From the NCBI GenBank assembly GCA_027619545.1, contig JAQCFT010000008.1:1-36710 (forward strand): DNA of 36,710 nucleotides. Reading direction: 5' to 3'. The stretch comes from Verrucomicrobiota bacterium (GTDB lineage Bacteria > Verrucomicrobiota > Verrucomicrobiia > Limisphaerales > AAA164-E04). Positions 33,984 to 36,710 of the stretch are shown piece after piece. The stretch's first letter is position 1, and each line of letters begins with the position of its first letter. A model generated the notes under the pieces. The model saw nothing but the letters and a program-made list of their open reading frames with translations. It ran no database searches and had not been told where the DNA came from. The position numbers were made by a program, and so were the translations under genes.

Positions 33984-34209
33984 GATCGCGCTGCCAGGGG
34001 GAAGTAATGGTTTCTTGCCTTCGCACAGCCCTGCTTAATGGCTCTGGTGAGGCAAAAAGTTTCTTTAACCAAAGCCCACGTTGTTGCTGCGGGGGGCGGG
34101 GAGGGATTAAAGTGTTATTCGGCAAGCAATCCTGACTGAGTGGAGCGTATTTGTCCCTGTTAATTTGTGCATTGTCAGCTTCCAATGGCCCGGCCTATGC
34201 TCCCTCGGT

Positions 34210-34587
34210 ATGGAACAGGATCAATTGCGCGAATTGTTTCGCATGCAGAAGGCGTTGAACGAGCGGATCGGTGTGCACACCGATACCATGACCGAGGAGC
34301 AAAAGACCGAGTGGGTCTTGAATTACTGCCGGGCGATGGGGCAGGAAATGGCCGAACTCACCGATAGTGTTCCTTGGAAATGGTGGGCCAAGTACCAGAA
34401 GTTTGACGAGCAGAACGCCCGGGTCGAGGTGGTGGATTTATTCCATTTCCTGATCAGCCTGGCTCAGGTTCTCGGGATGAGTGCAGACGATGTTTTCCAG
34501 GCTTACGTGAAAAAGAATGAAGTGAATTTCAAACGGCAGGAATCCGGCTACACCGAGAAGGACCACTCGGATTCGCGTCATATCTAA
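34210..34587 (+). CDS. Dimeric dUTPase-like all-alpha NTP pyrophosphatase
   Basis: 125 residues. The metal-binding pattern of the all-alpha NTP pyrophosphatase superfamily is complete: E46-xx-E49 in QEMAEL and E73-xx-D76 in VEVVDLFHF, and the C-terminal YVKKNEVNFKRQESGY is typical of the dimeric dUTPase branch (dUTPase_2). It would hydrolyse dUTP or a related nucleotide to keep uracil or damaged bases out of DNA. An upstream in-frame ATG at 34165 would add 15 residues that do not match, so ATG 34210 is chosen. The ribosome-binding site is weak. Confidence 0.85.
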   Translation: MEQDQLRELFRMQKALNERIGVHTDTMTEEQKTEWVLNYCRAMGQEMAELTDSVPWKWWAKYQKFDEQNARVEVVDLFHFLISLAQVLGMSADDVFQAYVKKNEVNFKRQESGYTEKDHSDSRHI

Positions 34588-34673: not shown

Positions 34674-35426
34674 TTGATCGAAATATCTGAAATCACTGTT
34701 TCCCATTGGGCACTGGCCCTGTTGGGAGCGTTCAGCCTGGGATTTTCCAAGACGGGTTTCCCCGGAATGGCTTTGGTCAATGTTTTGATCATGGCCGAAT
34801 TGTTCGGCGCAAAGCAATCAGTGGGGTTGATCCTGCCCTTGTTGATTGTGTGCGATGTGACCGTGTTCCCCATGTTTCGCCGCCATGCAACATGGTCTCA
34901 GGTTTGGCCCATATTGATCCCTTCTTGCATTGGCATTGTGGGCGGTTATTTCTTGCTGGGAGGCATTGATAATTCCACCGCCCGCAAATCGATTGGACTG
35001 ATCATACTGGTAATGCTCGTGCTGCAGTTGGTGCGTGGGTACAAGCAGGATTTTTTGAAAAAGCTTCCTGATTCCGAATCCTTTCGGTGGGGGAGCGGGT
35101 TGACCATTGGCATCTCCACCATGATGGCCAATGCGGCCGGGCCGGTGTATTCCATCTACGCTCTGGTGCATAAAATGCCCAAAATGGAATTCCTGGGTAT
35201 CGGGGCCAGATGTTTTCTTCTGGTTAACATCATCAAGGTTCCCTTCATGACGGACCTGGATATCATCAATGCCTGGTCTCTCAAAATGGACGCATTGCTG
35301 TTGCCAGGAATTTTTGCCGGTATTCTGGTCGGGAGGAGGGTGATTGACCGCATCCCGCAAAAAGCTTTCGAAGTGTTGTTATACGCTTTTTCCGGTATTG
35401 CCGGGGTTCGGCTGTTCATGTTTTGA
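34674..35426 (+). CDS. TauE/SafE-family permease (anion or sulfite exporter-like)
   Basis: About 250 residues with eight predicted membrane helices in two halves. The first repeat has LGFSKTGFPGMAL, the second ISTMMANAAGPVYSIYAL; these paired G/N/P-rich segments are the TauE/SafE hallmark. Members move sulfite, sulfoacetate or other small organic anions across the inner membrane; the substrate here is not readable. The only start that keeps the first helix is TTG at 34674; no Shine-Dalgarno is visible. The open-ended DUF455 gene starts 21 bases later and may be co-transcribed. Confidence 0.88.
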   Translation: MIEISEITVSHWALALLGAFSLGFSKTGFPGMALVNVLIMAELFGAKQSVGLILPLLIVCDVTVFPMFRRHATWSQVWPILIPSCIGIVGGYFLLGGIDNSTARKSIGLIILVMLVLQLVRGYKQDFLKKLPDSESFRWGSGLTIGISTMMANAAGPVYSIYALVHKMPKMEFLGIGARCFLLVNIIKVPFMTDLDIINAWSLKMDALLLPGIFAGILVGRRVIDRIPQKAFEVLLYAFSGIAGVRLFMF

Positions 35427-35437
35427 TTCGAATGATG

Positions 35438-35450
35438 GGAGGCGAGCATG
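35438..35450 (+). promoter_or_regulatory. Strong ribosome-binding site of the last gene
   Basis: GGGAGG (35438-35443) lies four bases before the ATG at 35448 and fixes that start. It is among the best Shine-Dalgarno matches in the window. Confidence 0.7.
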
Positions 35451-36710
35451 GAACTACGAGAACTGGCCGAGCGCATTCTGTTTAGTCCCGATCTGGAAAC
35501 CAAAATCTGGTGTCCTGACGTCATCACGGACGAACAGCCGGGGAAGGCTTTTGCATCGCCGGAAGCGCCCCACCGGGATGAACAACTTCAGTTTTCTCTC
35601 AAGCAGGGCAAGTCAGATTTCCCTCCCTTGCATACGCTGGAAAAGGAATCGACCCGAGGCAAAATCCTTCATTTCTTTGCCAATCACGAATTGTTGGCGA
35701 CCGAATTGATGGCTTTGGTGTTGCTCAAATTTCCTGACGCTCCCCGCAGTTTTCGGCGAGGTGTTTTGAAGACTTTGAAAGACGAACAGGAACACACCCG
35801 AATCTATGTGGAGCGACTCAAGGCGATGGGTGTGGAGTTCGGGCAGTATCCGGTCAATGGTTTCTTCTGGAAGATGATTGCTCCCATGCAGACTCCCATG
35901 GATTATGTCAGTCGGCTTTCTCTGACCTTTGAGCAGGCTAATCTGGATTTCTCAAAATTCTTTGCTTCACAGTTTCAAACGATCGGAGACGAGGATTCGC
36001 ACAAATTGCTCGAACGCATTTATCGCGATGAAATTGGACATGTTGGTTACGGATTGAAATGGTTCCGCCGGTGGAAGAAGCCTGAGCAGAGCGACTGGGA
36101 AGCTTACGAAGAACAACTGGACTTTCCTTTGTCCCCACGACGTGCCAAAGCCGAACACTACAATGTGGAAGGGCGTGAACGCGTGGGATTCGATCGGGAT
36201 TTCATCCAGCGATTATACGTCTATTCGAAATCCAAAGGGCGCACCCCGGGGATTTATTATTTCAATCCCTACGCCGAACAGTTTTTGGCTGCCGGCCCGG
36301 GGTTCACTCCGAACCAACGTCAGGTTTCCTTTGAAACGGATCTGGAAACCTTGCCAATGTTTTTGTGTCGATCGGATGATGTGGTGTTGATGCGCCGGGA
36401 ACCTTCATTGGATTTTCTGGTGACGCTCAAACAGGCCGGGATCGAACTGCCTCAAGTGGAGGTTCTCAAAGCAGGAAAGGTTGCGCGAAGTTCTGAACTG
36501 TTGGATCGCAAGATCGGATTCCTCAAGCCATGGGCCTGGAGTCCCGATGCCATCTCCCTCATGAAGCCAATCATGCCGCAATTGACACGTCCAGCTCCAC
36601 CCGTGGGAGATGCCTGGGATGCTCAGTTTCGTCTGTTGTTTGGGAAGGATTGGGGCGCCCATCAGCTGAGGGGATTTCTGAAGGATGAAGGGGAATTGCG
36701 CTGGTTGTGC
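35448..36710 (+). CDS. DUF455 ferritin-like protein fused to an ATP-grasp-like region (3' truncated by window edge)
   Basis: The frame starts at ATG 35448 and stays open to the last base, giving at least 421 residues. Residues 1-210 match DUF455, a ferritin-like four-helix domain. The di-iron ligands are all present: E81 (NHELLATEL), E113 and H116 (DEQEH), E162 (FEQANLDF), E195 and H198 (RDEIGHVGYG). From about 235 the sequence changes to an alpha/beta style (FNPYAEQFLAAG, LPMFLCRSDDVVLMRREPS, FLVTLKQAGIELPQVEVL, then KIGFLKPWAWSP). This resembles the pre-ATP-grasp and early ATP-grasp region of peptide-ligase-like enzymes. The ATP-binding loop and catalytic residues would lie beyond the window. 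The function is unknown. It follows the TauE-like gene by 21 bases. Confidence 0.75.
   Translation, partial: MELRELAERILFSPDLETKIWCPDVITDEQPGKAFASPEAPHRDEQLQFSLKQGKSDFPPLHTLEKESTRGKILHFFANHELLATELMALVLLKFPDAPRSFRRGVLKTLKDEQEHTRIYVERLKAMGVEFGQYPVNGFFWKMIAPMQTPMDYVSRLSLTFEQANLDFSKFFASQFQTIGDEDSHKLLERIYRDEIGHVGYGLKWFRRWKKPEQSDWEAYEEQLDFPLSPRRAKAEHYNVEGRERVGFDRDFIQRLYVYSKSKGRTPGIYYFNPYAEQFLAAGPGFTPNQRQVSFETDLETLPMFLCRSDDVVLMRREPSLDFLVTLKQAGIELPQVEVLKAGKVARSSELLDRKIGFLKPWAWSPDAISLMKPIMPQLTRPAPPVGDAWDAQFRLLFGKDWGAHQLRGFLKDEGELRWLC

Follow-up and report, generated by a model that had tools for sequence, protein, structure and literature searches.

The window, by which we mean the whole stretch of DNA that was analysed, is an entire contig of 36710 bases. 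At its 3' end lies a gene in which a DUF455 domain is joined to the first part of an ATP-grasp ligase, preceded by a permease gene. The following features were located in this region:

34674..35426, plus strand: TauE/SafE-family permease gene (PF01925, E 6.9e-21), directly upstream of the fusion gene
35438..35443, plus strand: Shine-Dalgarno-like GGGAGG in the sequence 5' of the ATG of the fusion gene
35448..36710, plus strand: DUF455/ATP-grasp fusion gene, 5' 421 codons, open frame with ATG start
35550..36209, plus strand: DUF455 ferritin-like di-iron domain, residues 35-254 (PF04305, E 1.4e-49; the genome search gives 35550-36209)
35688..36041, plus strand: six predicted di-iron ligands, from the codon of E81 to the codon of H198 (invariance and helices of a homologue model)
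36219..36710, plus strand: pre-ATP-grasp segment of the ligase half, residues 258-421 (ligase-half profile, E 9.8e-66, profile positions 1-164 of 444)

The frame 35448-36710 is open at its 3' end: no stop codon closes the fusion gene, which runs into the end of the contig. Relatives from the same genus show 69-71% identity across the shared 421 amino acids and run on with no stop up to 700-714 amino acids, from which about 290 further codons are expected beyond the contig end; the early stop or frameshift that the earlier note had named as a possible refutation of the fusion does not occur in them. A strong match was found in 23 of 58 related genomes (own genome counted), and the frame is uninterrupted in more than 20 relatives, which rules out chance or a truncation artefact. 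Full-length fusion proteins in relatives mostly comprise 650-780 amino acids. Since the gene in the window ends at the contig edge, the missing part of the ligase was assigned via relatives, including the catalytic ATP-grasp core, which begins at about residue 421 and lies wholly outside the window.

Among 241 sampled Verrucomicrobiota genomes, the 11 that carry DUF455 at E <1e-40 are the same 11 that carry the ligase half, and in 11 of 11 both halves lie in one open frame, with a length of 648-724 amino acids, the truncated copy of the window apart. A single-sequence scan of genome contigs yielded no relative, whereas an alignment-based scan of species genomes did find relatives, 392 of them, the best 80 of which were examined as named loci. 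A single ORF of 692-882 amino acids is present in all 80, and nearly all of these loci are titled Verrucomicrobiota metagenome bins. The window itself thus very probably stems from Pedosphaera-like Verrucomicrobiota. Bins titled Klebsiella pneumoniae (L093), Akkermansia muciniphila (L060) and Proteobacteria (L098) carry the fusion gene as well; these titles are probably wrong. In pairwise comparisons the divergence of one half tracks that of the other (correlation r 0.92), in keeping with two halves that are passed on as a unit. The DUF455/ATP-grasp fusion is real and widespread in Verrucomicrobiota, where its halves are co-inherited, and this is well supported by the computation.

Membership of the N-terminal domain in DUF455 is clear, with 169.3 bits against a Pfam gathering score of 34.3 for PF04305. 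It had previously been assigned to the N-terminal 210 residues; the domain was recovered, its extent was not, as it runs to about residue 254. The six di-iron ligands given at the same time (E81, E113, H116, E162, E195 and H198) are positioned correctly, and all 100 sequences that bear the domain have every one of them. The alignment comprises 101 distinct sequences, the exception being the protein of genome G022, from which most of DUF455 is absent. All six ligands were still invariant after the addition of three alphaproteobacterial standalone DUF455 proteins. In the homologue model four long helices (67-94, 100-126, 150-178 and 182-209) carry the ligands in the order that a ferritin-like bundle would have, E / ExxH / E / ExxH. 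Judged by conservation, the predicted di-iron site is likely to be active.

DUF455 is the more conserved half of the protein, with a mean pairwise difference of 0.35 versus 0.53 for the ligase half, and many of its non-ligand residues are also invariant. Searches of PDB sequences with DUF455 gave no significant match and only weak ferritin-like ones, which split into bacterioferritin and encapsulated ferritin on the one side versus aldehyde decarbonylase and R2-like oxidase on the other. The former would suit the main rival to a bifunctional enzyme, namely that the ligase half does the chemistry, while DUF455 serves as a ferroxidase, peroxidase or redox sensor that protects or regulates it and leaves the substrate untouched, in the manner of rubrerythrin or bacterioferritin. 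The weak matches equally include the latter, which argues against this role, as does the strong conservation of DUF455 together with its many invariant non-ligand residues, which is unusual for a passive accessory domain. Standalone DUF455 proteins of Pseudomonadota are 27-28% identical to the N-terminal domain and have all six ligands in common with it, but differ in their length of 274-284 amino acids and have no ATP-grasp half. In 2 of the 3 alphaproteobacterial plasmid records examined their genes adjoin a peroxiredoxin gene. This neighbour suits a role in handling peroxide or iron no less well than one in substrate oxidation and was counted against the bifunctional reading and for the rival, as was the ligase of G022 (L050:3162-4676, minus strand; 504 amino acids), which keeps the MEPRDFAE start and the ATP-grasp motifs with most of DUF455 gone, so that the ligase may not need DUF455. 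In G022 the domain may have been deleted naturally, or the assembly may be at fault. Taken on both sides, a protective or regulatory DUF455 is possible, if rather doubtful.

In the ligase half no Pfam family scored above its cut-off, and only sub-threshold matches to PreAtp-grasp, ATP-grasp_3 and DUF3182 were obtained. For PreAtp-grasp (PF18604) the best score among the window protein and its relatives was 18.6 bits versus a cut-off of 27.5; the E values were 0.13 for the window protein (below cut-off) and 0.0029 for the best relative. With the Pfam match sub-threshold, the identity of the residues following DUF455 as a pre-ATP-grasp segment was therefore derived from relatives and structure prediction, which agree with the first assignment made from the window. 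AlphaFold2 gave a pLDDT of 87.4 and a pTM of 0.77 for a full-length homologue (L036), and a pLDDT of 90.9 and a pTM of 0.90 for its ligase half. The fold modelled for this homologue is predicted to be ATP-grasp, and not the unrelated C-terminal fold that would have spoken against the fusion. Foldseek comparison of the homologue ligase half with the PDB returned 8ynd/8ynq, 3wvq/3wvr, 7r8q/7r8p (SAOUHSC_02373) and 8yi6 (BesA) with E 6e-18 to 5e-12. Sequence identity to these matches is only 12-18%, which therefore indicates a shared fold, not close membership; a PDB sequence search with the ligase half gave no significant match, and PHROGs and a viral fold library nothing specific.

Ranks 1-22 of the Foldseek result are all occupied by ATP-grasp peptide or amino-acid ligases, with TM-scores above those of the lower ranks, which include PurK, acyl-CoA carboxylase and biotin carboxylase. 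These lower matches would accord with another ATP-grasp activity of the C-terminal half (carboxylase, kinase or thioester former) in place of an amine ligase; given the ligases that fill the first 22 ranks at higher TM-scores, we consider this very improbable. ATP-grasp enzymes handle Mg-ATP with a lysine that precedes the glycine-rich loop, with an acidic residue and with an E-x-N motif. All 100 sequences that extend this far have K454, E493, R498, D585, E603, N605, R607, G611 and R612 without exception; only the truncated window protein stops short of them. By analogy with ATP-grasp enzymes in general, we presume Mg-ATP roles for K454, E493, D585, E603, N605 and R607. K454, D585 and E603-x-N605 are thus kept in the relatives, in a region that is absent from the truncated gene of the window. 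The fusion of DUF455 to a probable ATP-grasp enzyme, as first proposed from the window, is borne out by same-genus relatives of 700-714 amino acids with an ATP-grasp C-terminal fold and conserved Mg-ATP residues; like the fusion itself, the active-site residues are well supported. ATP-dependent activation of a carboxylate can safely be deduced from this fold and these residues.

The best structural match to the ligase half is the Streptomyces ATP-grasp peptide ligase 8ynd/8ynq (E 6e-18, TM about 0.56-0.66), which differs in having only 17-18% identity and a chain of 406-417 amino acids, too short for an added DUF455. BesA (8yi6), an amino-acid ligase from Streptomyces, has the ATP-grasp ligase fold in common (E 5e-12), but is 15% identical and consists of a 458-amino-acid chain without a di-iron domain. 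3wvq/3wvr, entered as 'ATP grasp protein', match with E 1e-15 and TM 0.62-0.64, at 13-14% identity and with no DUF455. We take these structures to be the pheganomycin ligase PGM1. PGM1 ligates to ribosomal precursor peptides, and the presence of 3wvq among the top structural matches would be in line with a RiPP or protein-modification enzyme, whose ligase half would act on a side chain of a protein or peptide and whose DUF455 would oxidise the same peptide. In the 80 loci, however, no precursor peptide of the PGM1 type was found within 700 bases: small conserved ORFs at this distance are shared by at most 5 loci, and several look like shadows of other genes, which rules out a nearby RiPP precursor. 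With no broadly conserved neighbour either, such a peptide-directed enzyme appears unlikely.

As regards the gene neighbourhood, the commonest neighbour clusters occur in at most 11 of the 80 loci and at varying positions, and a conserved operon is hereby ruled out. The survey chose ORFs by length, and some short neighbours may be missed. The commonest neighbours are housekeeping genes (ABC-F ATPase, ABC transporter, DEAD helicase, AAA ATPase, RF3 and a pilin-like gene), and none of the conserved ones in the 80 loci is of a kind to provide an unusual amino acid or to serve as redox partner or exporter. The TauE/SafE gene, which ends at 35426, is separated from the fusion gene by 21 bases, as the earlier note had stated; its further suggestion that the permease could move substrate or product does not hold as a general link, as only 6 of 80 named loci have TauE immediately upstream, and these belong to this genus and one sister genus. 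TauE is thus ruled out as a general partner and is probably an operon partner in these two genera only. Upstream of TauE, at 34165-34587 on the plus strand, the window carries a gene of the dimeric dUTPase family (dUTPase_2, E 5.8e-26), and this gene order is kept in three relatives. With no broadly conserved neighbour and no precursor-peptide ORF, the fusion protein probably works alone, without a fixed gene cluster.

We estimate at roughly one in two the probability that the protein is a bifunctional oxidase and carboxylate-amine ligase with a modified amide as its product. The carboxylate-bridged di-iron site of DUF455 would activate O2 and oxidise a small organic substrate, for example by hydroxylation or desaturation, the ATP-grasp half would activate a carboxylate as acyl-phosphate with Mg-ATP and then join it to an amine, and together the two halves would yield an oxidised amide- or dipeptide-like metabolite. 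Amide formation is proposed because the nearest folds are peptide and amino-acid ligases, and by the same analogy to solved folds the enzyme may plausibly serve in modification or in the making of peptides. Oxidation by DUF455, for which the invariant di-iron motif is the basis, would follow less firmly than carboxylate activation; we infer iron binding, an oxidation directed at an organic substrate and not at iron or peroxide, a single molecule shared by both domains, and the nature of that molecule. The lack of conserved partner genes or a precursor peptide among the loci was likewise counted against the bifunctional enzyme. More tentatively, the gene could constitute a self-contained one-gene pathway of Verrucomicrobiota, in which an amino acid or a related acid would be oxidised at the DUF455 site and coupled by the ATP-grasp half to give a modified amide or dipeptide; this would be the first function for DUF455.

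Di-iron oxidases of the HDO fold are known to be encoded beside ATP-grasp ligases (PMC13185094, PMC2922099), a precedent that was counted in favour of the bifunctional reading. For mangotoxin, the HDO di-iron oxidase MboA acts with the ligases MboC/MboD to give a small modified peptide (PMC13185094). These clusters resemble the fusion in pairing a di-iron oxidase with amino-acid ligases, but they employ a heme-oxygenase-like fold and separate clustered genes, whereas in the fusion a ferritin-like DUF455 domain and the ligase share a single chain, and no cluster surrounds the gene. In the literature on DUF455, subscription papers being outside the search, we could not find a description of DUF455 joined to ATP-grasp; the domain types are known ones, and their combination may already be on record in domain databases. 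Through the obligate fusion, DUF455 is linked to a reaction of a definable type (a carboxylate with an amine), and its chemistry could be assayed in a one-protein system. Should both oxidation and ligation take place on the same molecule, Verrucomicrobiota would possess a compact route to a modified amide metabolite. With no gene cluster to mark it, such a route would escape genome mining that looks for clusters.

DUF455-like sequences were also noted apart from the fusion. Separate Verrucomicrobiota frames of about 445-552 amino acids (L024:1264-2754 on the minus strand, and L142-L153) show a weak DUF455-like second half (E 1e-14 to 5e-4) without the ligase half. Most of the weaker DUF455 matches in the 241 sampled genomes (E 1e-14 to 1e-7) fall in frames of this size. 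At L158:5240-6516 and L160:5288-6600 the alphaproteobacterial standalone DUF455 gene directly follows the peroxiredoxin gene, a possible clue to an ancestral role.
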